In this document: positions 5,857 through 32,353 of the stretch, in pieces
Position numbering within the stretch: the stretch's first letter is position 1
Layout: the number at the start of each line of letters is the position of its first letter
Source: an uncultured Mycoplasmatota bacterium
GTDB taxonomy: Bacteria; Bacillota_I; Bacilli_A; RF39; UBA660
Direction of reading: 5' to 3'
Length of the DNA stretch: 38,767 bases
NCBI GenBank assembly: GCA_946630615.1
Contig: CAMOYX010000003.1
Coordinates: forward strand, 1-38,767
The notes under the pieces: model-generated
Told to the model about the DNA's origin: nothing
The model's input: only the letters and a program-made list of their open reading frames with translations
The model's database searches: none
Translations under genes and position numbers: made by a program

Positions 5857-6285
5857 TTAGAATCTTACGCCTTCTCTTCGTTCTAAGTCTCTCTTTTTAA
5901 TAGCTTCTCTCTTATCATAAAGCTTCTTACCCTTACAAACTGCTATTTCAAGTTTAGCTTTGTTATCCTTAATATACATTCTAATTGGAATAACACTTAT
6001 CTGTGTAAGAGTCTTTTCTTTTATAAGCTTTCTTATTTCACTTTTATGAAGAAGTAGCTTTCTTGCTCTTCTTTCATCGTGATTAAATTGATTAGCTTCC
6101 TTATATTTAGCAATAAACATATTAGTAACAAAAGCTTCTTCTCCCTTGAATGTTACAAAAGCATCCCCTAGATCTACAGATCCTTTTCTAACACTTTTAA
6201 TTTCACTTCCGTTTAATACTATTCCTGCTTCAATACTTTTTCCTACTTCGTAGTTAAAAAACGCCTTTTTGTTTCTTATTTCCAT
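5857..6285 (-). CDS. smpB: SsrA-binding protein SmpB
   Basis: NKKAFFNYEVGKSIEAGIVLNGSEIKSVRKG and KKLYDKREAIKKRD; start chosen at the ATG after GGGGATGAT. Confidence 0.95.
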   Translation of the reverse strand: MEIRNKKAFFNYEVGKSIEAGIVLNGSEIKSVRKGSVDLGDAFVTFKGEEAFVTNMFIAKYKEANQFNHDERRARKLLLHKSEIRKLIKEKTLTQISVIPIRMYIKDNKAKLEIAVCKGKKLYDKREAIKKRDLERREGVRF

Positions 6286-8395
6286 GCTTTTTATCATCCC
6301 CTGTATTAACTAGTTCAAAGTCTATCATAGCTCTTTCTTTAGATGCAGCAACACATTTAACTCTGACTTTATCACCTATACGATAAATCTTCTTAGTACT
6401 ATTACCTACTAAAGAAAGTATCTCAGGAACATAATTATAATAGTCACCTTTAATTGTGCTTATATGAACTAATCCTTCAACTAAATTTGGAAGTTCTACA
6501 AAGAATCCAAAATTAGTGACAGTATCTATTATACCATCATATTCTTCTCCAATGTGACTTTCCATATATTCAGCCATTTTCATATCATCTACTGCTCTTT
6601 CAGCTTCTTGAGCATTAACTTCTTTTTCAGATGAATGAATTGCTACATTTACTAGTTGCTTAGATAGATAATCAATAGTACTCATTGAATAATCTTTATC
6701 TACTAGATAAGTCTTAATAAGTCTATGAACAGTTAAATCAGGATATCTTCTGATTGGACTAGTAAAATGTGTATAAGCACGTGATGCAAGTCCAAAGTGT
6801 CCAATATTATCACATGCATATTCAGCTTTCTTCATACTTCTTAACATCATAGATGATAATACTTTAAATTCAGGTACTTCATCAAGTTCATCTAATACAG
6901 CTTGCATAGTTAAACTTGTTATATTATGCATTGGTGTCTTAAGTTCATAGCCCATTGCTTTAAGTAAATGTACAAAATCATCTATCTTTTCTTGATTTGG
7001 TTTACCATGGACTCTGTAGATAAATGGTACATCCATATTATAGAAGTGTGAAGCTATAGTTTCGTTTGCAGCTATCATGAAGTCTTCTATTAATTTCTCT
7101 CCATCTTCTCTATCATATTTAACAATATCTATTGCTTTACCATCACTATCTTGAATAATCTTAGCTTCATCAAGATTAAAATCAATATAACCTCTTCCCA
7201 TCTTTTCTTTACGTAAGATGTGAGCTAGTTCATTCATTTCTTTTAACTTATCTGCAAATGGTTCATATCCAGGAGCCACTATATCTCTCATAATAATATT
7301 GTTAACATCTGAATAATTCATTTTCTTACATGACTTAATATAACTTGGATAAATAGAATAATCTATTACTTTACCCGCTTTATTAATCTTCATAGTACAA
7401 GACATTGTAAGTCTAATTACACCTTCATTAAGTGAACAAATACCATTACTTAATTGATGAGGTATCATAGGAATTACAGTATCTGCTAAATAATTAGATG
7501 TACCTCTTTCAAATGCTGCATCTCCTAAACTAGTATTTGGTTTAACATAATTAGAAACATCTGCAATATGTACTCCAAGTATGTAATTTCCATCTTCATC
7601 TCTATCTAAACTTATCGCATCATCTATATCTTTAGTGTCTTTACCATCTATTGTAAAGATCATCTCATTCGTTAAGTCTTTTCTACCTTTTAGTTCTTCT
7701 TCTGATACTTCACTTGGAATACTCTTTAACTCTTCTATTACTTCTTCACTAAATTCAGGTTCTATTTTATATCTTAAAGCTACACTTAAAATATCAATTC
7801 CTGGATCATTTTTATGACCTATAACTTGTTTAATAGATGCTTGATATTTCTTCTTTCCAAGTTGCTTATCAAGCTTAATTAATACTTTATGACCTTCAAC
7901 ACACTTATCCAATGCATTATCGTCAAACTTTAATTCTATATCTAACTTTTCATCATCTAGTTTAACGGCTAAACCTTTCTTAGTTGATATTACTTCTCCA
8001 ACTAAAGTTGATAAATCTCTTTTAATGATTCTATTAACTCTTCCTTCAGGTTTTACACCTTTCTTAATAACTTCACAAAGAACAATATCACCTGATAAAG
8101 CTCCATTGCTCATATCACTAGCAATATATAAGTCTTCTTCATTAGGTAGTATTACAAAGCCAAATCCTTTTCTATTTGCTTCATACTTACCAACCTTCAT
8201 TCCTGGCATATTCTTAATTAATATATATTTATCTTTCTTAGTTCTAAATACTATACCTTCTTCAACTAATGCTTCTAATTCTTCTAATAATTTAGTTAAA
8301 TCACTAGTTTCCTTAAGATTCATTTCATTAAAAATAGACATAGCTTCTAAGGCATCATATTTTCCTTCTAAGAATTCTAAAATAGAATCACGCAT
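6254..8395 (-). CDS. rnr: ribonuclease R
   Basis: RNB motifs FTIDGKDTKDIDDAIS, ASRAYTHFTSPIRRYPDL and a C-terminal S1 domain; overlaps smpB. Confidence 0.96.
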   Translation of the reverse strand: MRDSILEFLEGKYDALEAMSIFNEMNLKETSDLTKLLEELEALVEEGIVFRTKKDKYILIKNMPGMKVGKYEANRKGFGFVILPNEEDLYIASDMSNGALSGDIVLCEVIKKGVKPEGRVNRIIKRDLSTLVGEVISTKKGLAVKLDDEKLDIELKFDDNALDKCVEGHKVLIKLDKQLGKKKYQASIKQVIGHKNDPGIDILSVALRYKIEPEFSEEVIEELKSIPSEVSEEELKGRKDLTNEMIFTIDGKDTKDIDDAISLDRDEDGNYILGVHIADVSNYVKPNTSLGDAAFERGTSNYLADTVIPMIPHQLSNGICSLNEGVIRLTMSCTMKINKAGKVIDYSIYPSYIKSCKKMNYSDVNNIIMRDIVAPGYEPFADKLKEMNELAHILRKEKMGRGYIDFNLDEAKIIQDSDGKAIDIVKYDREDGEKLIEDFMIAANETIASHFYNMDVPFIYRVHGKPNQEKIDDFVHLLKAMGYELKTPMHNITSLTMQAVLDELDEVPEFKVLSSMMLRSMKKAEYACDNIGHFGLASRAYTHFTSPIRRYPDLTVHRLIKTYLVDKDYSMSTIDYLSKQLVNVAIHSSEKEVNAQEAERAVDDMKMAEYMESHIGEEYDGIIDTVTNFGFFVELPNLVEGLVHISTIKGDYYNYVPEILSLVGNSTKKIYRIGDKVRVKCVAASKERAMIDFELVNTGDDKKHGNKKQKGVF

Positions 8396-9424: not shown

Positions 9425-11230
9425 TTATCTCTTTAATCTAAATCTTTCTTTAGGATCTAATATAGCTTTACGTAATCTAATATTATCTGGAGTTACCTCA
9501 ACATATTCATCATCTTGAATAAACTCTAAAGCTTCTTCTAAACTAAACTTCTTTGGAGAAACTAAGTTAATAGCTTCATCAGATGATTTAGAACGTGTAT
9601 TAGACATTTCTTTATTCTTACATGGATTTACATCTAAATCATTATCTCTACTATGTAGACCAATAATCATACCTACATATACATCAACAGCAGGACCAAC
9701 AAATAAAGTACCTCTGTCTTGTAAGTTATATAATGAATAACCTAAAGTCTTACCAGTTTCCATAGAAACAAGTACACCATTTTTTCTACCAGCAATTGGT
9801 CCAACATATGGTTTGTATTCATCAAAGTCTCTTACCATAATACCTTCACCACGAGTATTAGTAATGAATGCACTACGATAACCAATTAATCCTCTAGTAG
9901 GAGCAGAAAACTCTAAATGTGCTTGTCCTTCACTATTAGTAGAAACATTTGTTAAAATACCTTTTCTTTCTTGTAAATCATTAATAATAGTTCCTTGATA
10001 ATCTTGAGGACAGTTAATAATTACAGTTTCAAATGGTTCGTATTTCTTTCCATCTCTTTCTTCAAGTAATACTTCTGGCTTAGAAACACATAGTTCAAAA
10101 CCTTCTCTTCTCATGTTTTCAAGTAAGATAGATAAGTGTAATTCACCTCTACCAGATACTTTAAATCCATCAGAGCCAGGTAATTCTTCAACTCTTAAAC
10201 CAACATTAACTTCAAGTTCTCTTTCTAATCTTTCTTTAATATGTCTACTTGTTAAGTATTTACCAGATTGACCAGCAAATGGTCCATTATTAACTAAGAA
10301 GTTCATAGATAGTGTTGGTCTTTCAATATGAATAGGTTCCATTGCTTCTACATGATTTGGATCACATATAGTGTCACCAATCATGATATCTGGACAACCA
10401 GCAAAGATAACTATGTCTCCATAGTAAGCTTCTTTCTTTTCTACTCTCTTAATTCCTTCAGTAACAAATAATTTAGAAATTCTAAATTGCTCTACTTTAT
10501 CAGAACCATTTCTGCATAAAGAAACCATTTCACCAGACTTAACAACACCCTTAGTAATACGAGCAACACCAAGTCTACCTAAGAAGTTATCATAGTCTAA
10601 GTTAGATACTTGCATTTGTAATGGATCTTTAGCATCACCTTTAAATGCTTCAACTTGTTCTAAAACTGTATCAAGTAAAGCATTAACGTTATCAGTTTGT
10701 ACATTTGGATCAAATGTAGCCCAACCATCTCTTGCAACACCATAAATAATTGGGAAGTCTAATTGTTCATCATTAGCATTTAATTCCATGAAAAGATTAA
10801 ATGTTAAATCAACAACTTCTTCTGGTCTTGCATCTCTCTTATCAATCTTATTAATAAATAGAATTGGTTTTAAATTTTGCTCTAAAGCTTTTCTTAAAAC
10901 AAACTTAGTTTGAGGCATTGGTCCTTCTGCAGAGTCAACAATTAAAATAACAGTATCAGCTGTTTTAATAACTCTTTCTACTTCAGAAGAGAAATCAGCA
11001 TGACCTGGAGTATCGATTATATTAATCTTATAATCTTTATATCTAATAGAACAGTTCTTAGAATAAATAGTAATACCTCTTTCTCTTTCAATTGAGTTAG
11101 AGTCCATTACTTGGTCTACTAATTCTTCATGTGAACTAAAAGTACCATTTTGTCTTAATAAAGCATCTACTAAAGTACTCTTACCAGCGTCTACGTGAGC
11201 TACAACAGCTACATTAATAATTTTATCCAT
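9425..11230 (-). CDS. typA: translational GTPase TypA/BipA
   Basis: AHVDAGKSTLVDALL, RERGITI, DTPGHADFSSEVER, NKIDK. Confidence 0.97.
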   Translation of the reverse strand: MDKIINVAVVAHVDAGKSTLVDALLRQNGTFSSHEELVDQVMDSNSIERERGITIYSKNCSIRYKDYKINIIDTPGHADFSSEVERVIKTADTVILIVDSAEGPMPQTKFVLRKALEQNLKPILFINKIDKRDARPEEVVDLTFNLFMELNANDEQLDFPIIYGVARDGWATFDPNVQTDNVNALLDTVLEQVEAFKGDAKDPLQMQVSNLDYDNFLGRLGVARITKGVVKSGEMVSLCRNGSDKVEQFRISKLFVTEGIKRVEKKEAYYGDIVIFAGCPDIMIGDTICDPNHVEAMEPIHIERPTLSMNFLVNNGPFAGQSGKYLTSRHIKERLERELEVNVGLRVEELPGSDGFKVSGRGELHLSILLENMRREGFELCVSKPEVLLEERDGKKYEPFETVIINCPQDYQGTIINDLQERKGILTNVSTNSEGQAHLEFSAPTRGLIGYRSAFITNTRGEGIMVRDFDEYKPYVGPIAGRKNGVLVSMETGKTLGYSLYNLQDRGTLFVGPAVDVYVGMIIGLHSRDNDLDVNPCKNKEMSNTRSKSSDEAINLVSPKKFSLEEALEFIQDDEYVEVTPDNIRLRKAILDPKERFRLKR

Positions 11231-11288
11231 AATCTCATCCCTTTCGGATATCTAGAAGATAATACAACAATAAAAATAAAAAGACAAG

Positions 11289-11315
11289 AAAAAAGTAGTT
11301 ACCAAAGTAACTACT
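11289..11315 (-). terminator. rho-independent terminator of the large ncRNA
   Basis: Minus strand AGTAGTTAC-TTTG-GTAACTACT followed by TTTTTT. Confidence 0.85.
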
Positions 11316-11370
11316 ATTCTCTATGTATACTAAAATATGCTTAAATGAAAAAGATGTACATTAAGCATTA

Positions 11371-11398
11371 ACAAGGGAAACACTAAAGCGTCTCAACC
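11371..11398 (-). repeat. apical hairpin module copy 2 of the ncRNA
   Basis: GGTTGAGACGCTTTAGTGTTTCCCTTGT; 26/28 identical to copy 1, differences only in the loop. Confidence 0.9.
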
Positions 11399-11791
11399 TA
11401 ATATACTCAATATACATCCCATCATGTGAGATAAACTCACGAGTTTTTTTACTAACGTATTCATAACACTACTAAGCTTTCATGATGTAACTCAATAGCA
11501 ATTATAAAAGCCACACAGACAAACCCCACGCGCGTACTTTCCTATGGCCGTCCGATAACCCCGTCGGGTCCGACGCACCACAAGACAGTAATTAATCAGT
11601 TTGCTGCATTCATTAGTAACGTGTGGCTCTAAACTTTTTAAAACTATACCACAGCTATATCTACTAAAAGTTATGGAATAATACCATAATCCCAAAACAA
11701 TAAATCGTTTAGGAATCATAGTAAACTCTACATAACGAGTGATATAACTATAATACAATTCCTAAGCAGACCAGAACTAAAATTAGCAAAT

Positions 11792-11819
11792 ACAAGGGAA
11801 ACACCGAAGCGTCTCAACC
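11792..11819 (-). repeat. apical hairpin module copy 1 of the ncRNA
   Basis: GGTTGAGACGCTTCGGTGTTTCCCTTGT; stem GAGACGC/GTGTTTC with a UUCG tetraloop. Confidence 0.9.
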
Positions 11820-11874
11820 AAGTACCAAAACGTTAACCTTAGTACCATGTCTATCCTATATTAGAACCATCTTA

Positions 11875-11903
11875 AATATACCAAACATATATTCATAAAT
11901 CAA
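11875..11903 (-). promoter_or_regulatory. sigma-A-like promoter of the ncRNA
   Basis: TTGATT (11903-11898), 17-nt spacer, TATATT (11880-11875). Confidence 0.65.
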
Positions 11904-11973: not shown

Positions 11974-12555
11974 TTATTCTTTTTCATCTTTTAAAGTAAA
12001 ACTTTCAAGCTCTACATGTGTAGGCATTATAGCTTTCATCTCTTTAATTCTCTTTCTCTTAGATGCTTTCTTACCGCTTCTCTTAATTAAAATCATAAAA
12101 CTAATAATAGCAACTATAGCATATAAAATATTTAGAATAATAACTAAAGCATTTGCAATATCTAAATTAATTTCAGTAATAACTGGTGTTAATAAACTAT
12201 TTACAAACTCAAATGGTATTTTTAAAAGAATTACTATAAATACAATAATTAGTATGTCTAACACGTTAAAGAAATTAGTTTTAAAATCATTTCCTGTAAA
12301 TGTTGATAAGAATTCCTCTAATCCTAAGTAAATATTTTTAAATTCATTGTAAAAGAATCCTCTTTTACTATTTAATTTATTAACATCTATACCATGCTTA
12401 CTATATATTTCTTTAATAGTATTTTTATAATCTATATCAAGCTTACCATCACTTTTTTCATACTTATTAGATAAAATGTTAAGTTCTTCATTTATTACCT
12501 TATCATCTAATATATATAATTCTCTTTTAATCTTTTCAAATACTTCTTCTTTCAT
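11974..12555 (-). CDS. hypothetical membrane protein
   Basis: ORF with two TM helices; terminator AATAAGAGT..ACTCTTATT at the stop codon. Confidence 0.6.
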   Translation of the reverse strand: MKEEVFEKIKRELYILDDKVINEELNILSNKYEKSDGKLDIDYKNTIKEIYSKHGIDVNKLNSKRGFFYNEFKNIYLGLEEFLSTFTGNDFKTNFFNVLDILIIVFIVILLKIPFEFVNSLLTPVITEINLDIANALVIILNILYAIVAIISFMILIKRSGKKASKRKRIKEMKAIMPTHVELESFTLKDEKE

Positions 12556-14255
12556 CTTCCTTGCCTTCCTATCGATATCTTCTTATACGATTCAATCTTA
12601 GAACGTTTAACATCACTTACAATAGTAACATCCTTATCTTTTGTTGTTACAGTCTCATAATGAACAACTCTTATAATATCACTATTATCTTCTTTAATTT
12701 CATTTTGATTCATATCTAAAATAAACATAGGAGTCTTATCTTCAAAGATTAAGTTCTCATCATTAATAAAATCTCTTCTTACCTCTTCATTCAAAAAATA
12801 AGTAACAGAATTTTTATTAACACTAGCAATATAGGTAATTAAATCAGTTGAATACTTATAAGAAGGTGCATGTGATACTTTACTAGAAAGAAGTAAATAT
12901 CTTTCATCCTTTAATACCTTAGGTCCTTTAAAAAACATATTCATCTTAATATTTAATATATCAATATTTAAATCTTTTAATCTATGTTCAATAACTCTAA
13001 CAGATTCTAATAATTCATCATTACTATGTAAATTTAAATCTTTTAAATATTTAAGTCTAAACATTACATTATTACTACTATTAATTATTTCTCTTAAATT
13101 ATCTAAATCTTTTGAACTAGGATTATTATTTAATATATATTTAGATACAAATCTATATTCAACTAATAAATCTCTATCTTCTTTATCTAAATGATTATAT
13201 TTGTTTTCTTTATCTTCTAATTCATCTAAATAAGATAATTCTCTTTTATTAGCAATATCTACTTCATCTCTATCATTAATCTTTAAATTATCAAATTCTA
13301 TAAAATAATCAGCTATAGTCCTAACATCTAAATCCGGTATAATTTCATATTTATCATGAATTCTCTTCTCTTCATTAAGATAGAATGTATCAAAGCTTAC
13401 TATTTTATTAATATTACTTCTACGTTTAATTTCTAATAATTCCATATCAATATTACGTCTTTTCTTAAATGGAATCTTACTACTTAACTCATTATTAACA
13501 AAATCAATCTCTTTATTTATTTCTTCAATTTCTAAAGGCATCTTAATTAATTCATATTTATTATTTAAATAATCACTATCAAGTTCTAGATCTTTTAAAT
13601 AATTAACTAACATACCTATATCAAGTTCAATAGCTTCTCTGTCATTTGCATCCCTAATTGCAGCTTTTAGCTTACTAAACTCTTCATCAAAATTCATTTC
13701 TAATGAAACTAAATCAGTAAAAAATATTTTATTATTGGTTTTATAATATTTATTCTTTAAATCATTTAGTTTTATAGATTTATCATAGTATTTATTAGTA
13801 ATAGTAACTAAATTATTATAAGTATCTACTTGGTTATGTAATTTAGTTAAAACTATTAAACATAATAAATTTAAAGTTCTCTTAATCTTTTTTAAATATT
13901 CATCACTATTATCTATATTATTCTTAAACATATTAATTTGTCTTTTAATCTCTATAAAATTAGTTTCTTCATTTAAAGATAAATTAATTCTAGGATTAGG
14001 AATTTTATAATCATCTAATATTAGATTTAAATGATACTTTGAATTATATTTCTTATAAAAATAATATTTATTTAAAAAATCTTCTAAATCATTATTATCG
14101 TTTGGAATAAAAATTCTGGATAAAGAACCATATACAGGATCCTTAAAAGAATAACTAACTCCAACGCCTAAAACACCATCATAAACATATGGTTCTCTTT
14201 TAGTAGAATAATAGCCAAATTTAATTAAAGTTTTATGTACTTCTTCTCTAGTCAT
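12552..14255 (-). CDS. hypothetical charged/coiled-coil protein
   Basis: Long ORF; start refined to MTREEVHKTL downstream of GGGGAG. Overlaps the next ORF by 4 nt. Confidence 0.65.
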   Translation of the reverse strand: MTREEVHKTLIKFGYYSTKREPYVYDGVLGVGVSYSFKDPVYGSLSRIFIPNDNNDLEDFLNKYYFYKKYNSKYHLNLILDDYKIPNPRINLSLNEETNFIEIKRQINMFKNNIDNSDEYLKKIKRTLNLLCLIVLTKLHNQVDTYNNLVTITNKYYDKSIKLNDLKNKYYKTNNKIFFTDLVSLEMNFDEEFSKLKAAIRDANDREAIELDIGMLVNYLKDLELDSDYLNNKYELIKMPLEIEEINKEIDFVNNELSSKIPFKKRRNIDMELLEIKRRSNINKIVSFDTFYLNEEKRIHDKYEIIPDLDVRTIADYFIEFDNLKINDRDEVDIANKRELSYLDELEDKENKYNHLDKEDRDLLVEYRFVSKYILNNNPSSKDLDNLREIINSSNNVMFRLKYLKDLNLHSNDELLESVRVIEHRLKDLNIDILNIKMNMFFKGPKVLKDERYLLLSSKVSHAPSYKYSTDLITYIASVNKNSVTYFLNEEVRRDFINDENLIFEDKTPMFILDMNQNEIKEDNSDIIRVVHYETVTTKDKDVTIVSDVKRSKIESYKKISIGRQGR

Positions 14256-14341
14256 ATAGCTCCCCATTTTCCAAAATAAGTATAACATAACAAAAAAACT
14301 TATACTAGATATGTTATAATACAAAAAAGGAGAAAAAATAA

Positions 14342-17602: not shown

Positions 17603-18256
17603 CTAATCTTTCTTTTTAGCAATTAATCTTAATAACTTAACAAATAAGTTAATAAAATCTAAATATAAACTAAATGCTCCAAATATTGCTAAGTTTTCTT
17701 CAGGAATACTATTTTCTCTTTCAAGTCTTAATACATTTTGTACATCATATCCAATATATAAAACAAATACTAAAACTCCAAGTACAGATATTAATAAAGA
17801 AAATGAATCACTTCTTAAGAATAATATATTAATAACTGCCATTAATACCATACCTAATAAACCAACTAATAAGTAAGGTCCAAATTTAGTTAAATCTAAA
17901 TTAGTCTTCTCTGCAAAATAAGCAAAACTAATAAATAATAATGCTGTAGCAGCAAATACTAATATAACATTAGATAAATCATAATATTGGAATATAGCAG
18001 TAAAAGAAATTCCTGTTAATAAAGAATATAAGAAATACAATACTTTTAAAGTAGAAGCACTCATCTTTCTTATACCAATAGTTAATGAAATAGCAGCAGC
18101 TACTTCAGCTATAACCAAACCTATAACTAAAAATTTATTCTCTAAAAATAAATTATTAACACTTGGAACAACACTTAATGTAAATGCTGTAACAAATGTA
18201 ATAAATAAACCTAATGCTAAAAGTTTAAAACTTTTAGCTAATGTATTACTTCCCAT
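17603..18256 (-). CDS. Bax inhibitor-1/YccA family membrane protein
   Basis: Seven TM; C-terminal IGYDVQNV...AIFGAFSLYLDFINLFVKLLRL. Confidence 0.92.
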   Translation of the reverse strand: MGSNTLAKSFKLLALGLFITFVTAFTLSVVPSVNNLFLENKFLVIGLVIAEVAAAISLTIGIRKMSASTLKVLYFLYSLLTGISFTAIFQYYDLSNVILVFAATALLFISFAYFAEKTNLDLTKFGPYLLVGLLGMVLMAVINILFLRSDSFSLLISVLGVLVFVLYIGYDVQNVLRLERENSIPEENLAIFGAFSLYLDFINLFVKLLRLIAKKKD

Positions 18257-18264
18257 ATATCCTC

Positions 18265-19371
18265 CTATACATTAAATCTAAAGTAAACTATATCTCCATC
18301 TTGCATTAAATAATCTTTACCTTCTAAGTTAAGTTTACCAGCTTCTTGAACTTTCTTTTCATCACCAAGTTCTTCTAAATCATTAAACTTAATAATCTCA
18401 GCTCTAATAAATCCTCTTTCAATATCAGAGTGAATAAGTCCAGCACATTCTTTAGCACACATTCCTTTTCTAAAAGTCCAAGCTCTACATTCATCACTTC
18501 CTGCAGTAAAAAATGTTTGTAACCCAAGTAAATCATAAGTAGCAAATATTAACTTATCTAAACCAGAATAATTAATACCAAGACTTTCTAAGAATTCTTT
18601 CTTTTCACTTTCTTCCATCTCAGCCATTTCAGATTCCATCTTAGCACACATAACAATTACAGATGATTCTTCAGCACTAGCAAGGCTTCTTACTTCTTCA
18701 ACATATTTATTTGTTTGCAATACAGCATCATCTTCATTAACGTTAGCAACATAGATAATTGGCTTCGCTGTTAAAAATGAAAATCCTCTCATATAGATTA
18801 ATTCTTCTTCAGTAAAGCTATCCATTATAGTTCTAATAGCTTTGCCATTAGTTAAAGCATCATGACATTTAGATAAACAACTATATTCCAACTTAGCTTG
18901 TTTATCATTTCCTTGTTTAGCTTTTTTTTCAATCTTACTTAGTCTTTGATCAACTATCTCTAAATCAGCAAGTGATAACTCAACATTAATTATTTCTATA
19001 TCTCTTTTTGGATCTACTTCTCCAGCAACATGTATTACATCCTTATCATCAAAGCATCTTACTACTTCAACAATAGCGTCAGTCTCACGAATATTAGCTA
19101 AGAACTTATTTCCAAGTCCTTCACCTTTACTTGCTCCACTTACTAAACCAGCTATATCAGTAAATTCAAAACTTGTAGGCACAGTTCTTTTAGGTATATA
19201 CATATCCTCTAAGAACTGTAACCTAGAATCAGGAACAGTAACAACTCCAACATTTGGATCTATAGTTGCAAATGGATAATTTGCAGCTAATATATGTTTT
19301 TTAGTAATTGCATTAAACAAAGTTGACTTACCAACATTAGGTAGTCCAACTATTCCAGCTTTTAAACTCAT
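18265..19371 (-). CDS. ychF: redox-regulated ATPase YchF
   Basis: GIVGLPNVGKSTLFNAITK, NYPFATIDPNVGVV, TGS domain at the C-terminus. Confidence 0.97.
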   Translation of the reverse strand: MSLKAGIVGLPNVGKSTLFNAITKKHILAANYPFATIDPNVGVVTVPDSRLQFLEDMYIPKRTVPTSFEFTDIAGLVSGASKGEGLGNKFLANIRETDAIVEVVRCFDDKDVIHVAGEVDPKRDIEIINVELSLADLEIVDQRLSKIEKKAKQGNDKQAKLEYSCLSKCHDALTNGKAIRTIMDSFTEEELIYMRGFSFLTAKPIIYVANVNEDDAVLQTNKYVEEVRSLASAEESSVIVMCAKMESEMAEMEESEKKEFLESLGINYSGLDKLIFATYDLLGLQTFFTAGSDECRAWTFRKGMCAKECAGLIHSDIERGFIRAEIIKFNDLEELGDEKKVQEAGKLNLEGKDYLMQDGDIVYFRFNV

Positions 19372-31538: not shown

Positions 31539-32024
31539 TCACTTATTAATAACAAAATTAATATTAATAACTTCATCCTGATTCTTAAATCTTATTATAT
31601 ATTGTCCATTACCCTCAAAAAGCATATAAATATACTTAACAAAACTATTATTTGGTTTTAGTACCTCACTATAATCAACCGAAGTATTAGAAAAATATTT
31701 AGATACATTATTTAATTCATTTTCATTAGGTCCATATAAATAATAAGCATTAGGATTAAAATAATAATCTGAATTCTTATTATTAATAATAGTAATTGGA
31801 ATTGATATAACAATTCTACCATTATAAATAGTATCTTCATTAACAATAGTAGAATAAGAATAATCACTTCCTACATTCATACTAACATTATCAAACATAA
31901 AATCAGTACCAAGTGATATATTGCTAACATTAGTTTTAACAGCACTTACTATTTCCTTAGTAACAAAAAATACACACAAAGCAATTATAGAAACAATAAG
32001 TATTGCATATATGTTCTTTATCAT
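31539..32024 (-). CDS. membrane-anchored extracytoplasmic protein (DUF4352-like)
   Basis: N-terminal TM plus a predicted beta domain; family assignment tentative. Confidence 0.5.
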   Translation of the reverse strand: MIKNIYAILIVSIIALCVFFVTKEIVSAVKTNVSNISLGTDFMFDNVSMNVGSDYSYSTIVNEDTIYNGRIVISIPITIINNKNSDYYFNPNAYYLYGPNENELNNVSKYFSNTSVDYSEVLKPNNSFVKYIYMLFEGNGQYIIRFKNQDEVININFVINK

Positions 32025-32040
32025 AAACTTCTACCTTTCA

Positions 32041-32079
32041 AAAAATAAAAAGGGAATAGTATGACTTATTCCCTTTTTA
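32041..32079 (-). terminator. rho-independent terminator between the uORF and the 31539..32024 gene
   Basis: AAAAAGGGAATA-AGTCATAC-TATTCCCTTTTT. Confidence 0.85.
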
Positions 32080-32156
32080 TCAAAAAATTGTAAGAATAAT
32101 ATGAATTTGTTTTTTACTTGATCAAATTCTTTCAAGTGTAGGAAACAAACCTACAT

Positions 32157-32224
32157 GTCAATAATAATTTAAAGATAGTAATTTAGGATAGGATCAGTGG
32201 ACTACTATGATAATTATTATTGAC
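32157..32224 (-). promoter_or_regulatory. long RNA stem-loop overlapping the uORF
   Basis: Perfect 13-bp inverted repeat GTCAATAATAATT (32157-32169) / AATTATTATTGAC (32212-32224), with inner ATAGTA/TACTAT pairing. Confidence 0.7.
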
Positions 32225-32230
32225 TATCAT
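32183..32230 (-). CDS. 15-aa leader peptide candidate (uORF)
   Basis: AAAGGAGTAGAAGTTT-ATG...TAA encoding MIVNNNYHSSPLILS. Confidence 0.5.
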   Translation of the reverse strand: MIVNNNYHSSPLILS

Positions 32231-32353
32231 AAACTTCTACTCCTTTCTTGATATGTATTATAACATTACTTGTTATCAATAAAAGTGAAATTTATGTGAA
32301 AACTATTTTAATCAAAAAAAGAAAGCAAATAAATTACTTGCTTTCTGACAGTA

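Follow-up and report, generated by a model that had tools for sequence, protein, structure and literature searches.

A predicted orphan gene for a large structured noncoding RNA upstream of typA in an uncultured Mycoplasmatota bacterium

The window, that is, the whole 38,767-nt stretch of DNA analysed here (contig CAMOYX010000003.1 of an uncultured Mycoplasmatota bacterium), looks chromosomal, as it bears genes for a diadenylate cyclase, rnr, smpB, secG, typA, ychF, parAB, ftsH, tilS, release-factor genes, and a 16S end. The typA/bipA gene (9425–11230; Pfam BipA_C at 6e-47 and GTP_EFTU at 1e-55) is preceded by a gene for a 193-aa protein (11974–12555) that belongs to no recognised family and whose homologues also precede typA in relatives. 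Between the two lies a unit proposed to encode a noncoding RNA of about 582 nt (11868–11287), with the upstream gene, the RNA unit, and typA all on the minus strand. The 193-aa protein is one of two adjacent no-family proteins (193 and 590 aa; 11974–14324) that are syntenic before typA in several members of the genus, at about 24–37% identity.

The coordinates given by the first-pass annotation (11289–11868) prove right, and the strand, which it had left out, is the minus one. The 5′ end of the unit is placed by a −10 box and the 3′ end by a terminator. The upstream gene is directly followed by a terminator hairpin of its own (11972–11948; AATAAGAGTTTATACTCTTATT and then a T-run, −9.8 kcal/mol). 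Next comes a promoter-like element, TTGATT-N17-TATATT, with a TG before the −10 box (extended −10) at 11903–11875, predicting a start near 11868, where the first long helix begins. The unit ends in a strong intrinsic terminator composed of a 6-bp and a 9-bp stem and a T-run (11322–11287). Of the promoter and terminator claimed for the RNA, the terminator is supported, terminator-like sites in the region exceeding chance (6 against 0.2 expected). The promoter is a well-placed candidate that is weak when taken alone, promoter-like sites in the same consensus scan being no more frequent than expected (4 against 4.8). An internal 88-aa ORF matches no coding family, and a coding reading of the unit was set aside.

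The predicted fold of this RNA is unusually stable. A 641-nt segment folds with a minimum free energy of −211.8 kcal/mol (z −9.2 against shuffles), while the 582-nt unit itself reaches z −10.7 on the minus strand, and −12.5 in a second estimate with other shuffles. The ensemble diversity is 58 for the unit, compared with 174 ± 39 in shuffles, and the most extreme 200-nt minus-strand segment of the whole stretch falls inside it. The high structural density and long helices described in the first-pass annotation are therefore confirmed, as is its GC-rich core, with 64% GC at 11520–11580 against 27% for the window. Whether 641 or 582 nt are folded, the terminator and five arms recur: arm A (11858–11763); arm B, a long hairpin whose basal helix measures 22 bp (11762–11640); arm C, the GC-rich core hairpin (11585–11540); arm D, an 8- plus 11-bp hairpin with the loop ACAUCAUGAA (11508–11460); and arm E (11420–11351). 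The helices closing the multiloops differ between the two folds and are hence uncertain.

Arms A and E end in a near-identical sequence, TNGGTTGAGACGCTTYRGTGTTTCCCTTGT, which forms a hairpin motif present in two copies (11819–11790 and 11398–11369; direct repeat D1). The motif comprises GG, a UU bulge, a 7-bp stem with two G-U pairs, a UUYR loop, CC, and UU. The copies agree at 27–28 of 30 columns (9–38 of alignment A1), compared with 14 of 27 among the other aligned columns, and a search of the genome that tolerated up to two mismatches recovered only these two copies. Since the G-U pairs are kept in both copies, this conservation suggests that the sequence matters and not pairing alone. Judging from their similarity, the twin hairpins are most likely docking sites, which might receive a protein that is dimeric or repeated, or let the RNA assemble with further copies of itself. 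Loop–loop complementarity in a kissing-loop search did not exceed that of shuffles, so self-assembly in particular receives no support.

Relatives of the RNA were sought within the genus, among several hundred genomes beyond it, and in phage, plasmid, and viral collections. In blastn searches, the organism's own genome, the genus genomes, and a class sample gave only short AT-rich matches, and the phage and plasmid collections gave none. The hairpin motif pattern had no match in the genus; its five matches in GTDB species genomes were inspected and judged to be due to chance, and exact patterns run against IMG/VR returned a few hairpin-like matches (the best being L097), about the number expected by chance and lying among ORFs. 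A covariance model of the hairpin yielded weak matches in family, class, and phylum samples, whose alignments were judged to be chance hairpins, while a model of the GC-rich domain, run over the family, matched the window alone. These searches reach close relatives and RNAs sharing the hairpins; a relative in which both have changed would be missed. The first-pass annotation had itself named a lack of conserved sequence in relatives as counting against its proposal, and none was found in the genomes searched. Its suggestion of a new class is conceivable, yet a class needs relatives, and these genomes supplied none.

The distance between the upstream gene and typA is 743 nt here, as compared with 77–354 nt in relatives with the same upstream gene. 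Because the gap of close relatives is so much shorter at this site, we propose either that this species acquired the RNA or that the others lost it. A rival reading is that the RNA, like ROOL and GOLLD, is accessory to a prophage or other mobile element, was left or landed before typA, and serves that element and not the host. Such an origin would fit the presence of the RNA in one species only, the short gap in syntenic relatives, and a GC content exceeding that of the genome; moreover, a different structured tandem element stands before typA in another member of the genus (G024), suggesting that insertions may be tolerated at this site. Against it, no phage, integrase, transposase, reverse transcriptase, or tRNA gene was seen in the window, and the phage, plasmid, and viral collections (the viral set searched by patterns only) held no match. 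On this balance, we consider a mobile-element RNA unlikely, if still worth keeping in mind.

That the unit is an inverted-repeat DNA or an assembly oddity and not an RNA gene at all would suit an orphan sequence with long, near-perfect arms. However, the two strands of a simple inverted repeat in DNA would fold to much the same extent, whereas the unit reaches z −10.7 on the minus strand and only −2.1 on the plus strand. As many as 48 of its 220 pairs (22%) are G-U, and only 172 pairs are possible on the opposite strand. The G-U content and the better minus-strand fold assign the structure to the putatively transcribed strand, and we infer from the predicted folds that the strand specificity probably reflects selection on an RNA. 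The flanks are also syntenic with those of relatives, and an artefact of this kind is improbable.

The order and direction of structured RNA, terminator, and gene might suggest that the RNA acts in cis on typA, as a leader or attenuator whose terminator is the switch. The promoter of typA itself argues against this. Among 30 typA loci compared, the window's included, TTGNNN-N17-TRTATTAT or a close variant precedes the start codon; 23 of the 30 passed a strict scan, and visual inspection shows the same pattern in the rest, whose −10 box is mostly of the TAATAT type. In the window, this genus-conserved element is TTGTCT-N17-TATTAT at 11287–11259, downstream of the terminator of the RNA. The second promoter of the first-pass annotation is thus much better supported than the sequence alone could show, as other members of the genus carry the element about equally far ahead of typA; its spacer is 17 nt and not 18. 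Since the typA promoter is genus-wide and lies after the terminator, the RNA is most likely not a leader of typA but an independent unit, as had been proposed. Other species also manage without such an RNA before typA, and the leader reading retains little probability.

A search with 4227 Rfam families at the gathering level recovered from the window only the 16S fragment and left the RNA unit unmatched. Focused Rfam scans for ROOL, GOLLD, OLE, tmRNA, and RNase P yielded no match at E ≤ 10. As a positive control, the RNA of L. salivarius pMP118 was put through a scan of this type and matched ROOL (RF03087) at 2e-28. Consequently, the RNA is not a detectable member of any of these five families. 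The Rfam search called for in the first-pass annotation therefore speaks against the kinship with ROOL, GOLLD, or OLE that it had entertained, and bears out its view that the RNA is neither tmRNA nor RNase P. The gene smpB is indeed in the window (5857–6297), 5 kb from the RNA, as the first-pass annotation had remarked of the smpB context. A divergent tmRNA or RNase P is nevertheless very improbable: a tRNA-like end and a tag frame are lacking; Rfam gives no match at a threshold as lax as E ≤ 10; ARAGORN detects no tRNA or tmRNA in the window; and although a tmRNA above the cut-off is absent from the organism's own genome, relatives keep an ordinary one (present in 32 of 37 genus members), and the 87% completeness of this genome is enough to explain the missing gene.

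Comparison with large RNAs of known families shows both likenesses and differences. The 520-nt RNA of L. salivarius, present in 34 of 45 genomes of that species (PMC5643018), matches RF03087, and the RNA described here resembles ROOL in its length (the RF03087 model has 574 positions), its independent unit, its multi-branched fold, and its patchy distribution. However, it lies away from phage genes and tRNAs, no phage, prophage, or tRNA-island context of the ROOL type being recognised in the window, and its long arms are far more stable (z −12.5 versus −1.3 for ROOL). With OLE, which forms an RNA dimer (PMC12286853), it shares a size of about 600 nt and a chromosomal location; in contrast to oapA, which is found only in ole carriers (PMC9723947), the gene of the neighbouring protein precedes typA in relatives devoid of the RNA. 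GOLLD is likewise a large, complex RNA of unknown function, but its members often exceed 800 nt (PMC12286853), so the RNA here is shorter, and it lacks a phage or tRNA context. ROOL and GOLLD form cages (PMC12286853), and a homo-octameric cage is characteristic of ROOL; for the present RNA, an ornate cage would be only an analogy.

The locus is most likely to hold a real, independent, orphan gene for a large structured noncoding RNA, a candidate scaffold with two docking hairpins. The unit is bounded by the terminator of the upstream gene, a promoter-like start, its own terminator, and the separate conserved typA promoter; it ends in its own terminator, is structured, and is noncoding, as expected of an independent noncoding RNA gene. 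We hold this reading of a predicted transcript with modest confidence, the odds being somewhat in its favour. The RNA would be transcribed and stable, and would work as a folded scaffold. A further step, which we offer as a tentative and doubtful possibility, is that it represents a new, ornate class of large bacterial RNAs, unrelated to ROOL, GOLLD, or OLE, in which the two docking hairpins would bring together a pair of partners or a pair of RNA molecules of this kind. Few bacterial RNAs so large and complex are known beyond the housekeeping ones, and those that have been studied form unexpected assemblies. If the proposal is true, this RNA would offer a new and compact object of study: it is unclassified, belongs to a small genome of which 0.8 Mb is assembled, and carries repeated docking-like hairpins.

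Several other structured stretches were observed. The element upstream of typA in G024 (L042), of the same genus, is a tandem repeat with a period of about 430 nt, bearing TTGAAA-N17-TACAAT and a GGTGTTTC-T terminator; its 250-nt segments have z of about −3 to −4 against shuffles, and it has no convincing Rfam match. In the window itself, the minus strand of 32001–32300, within the mostly intergenic stretch 32025–32353, gives z −4.8 and −3.9 in 200-nt segments, with no Rfam match at the gathering level. Strong predicted structure is also found on the minus strand at 501–700 and 18001–18300 (z −4.7 and −5.1, respectively, for 200-nt segments).
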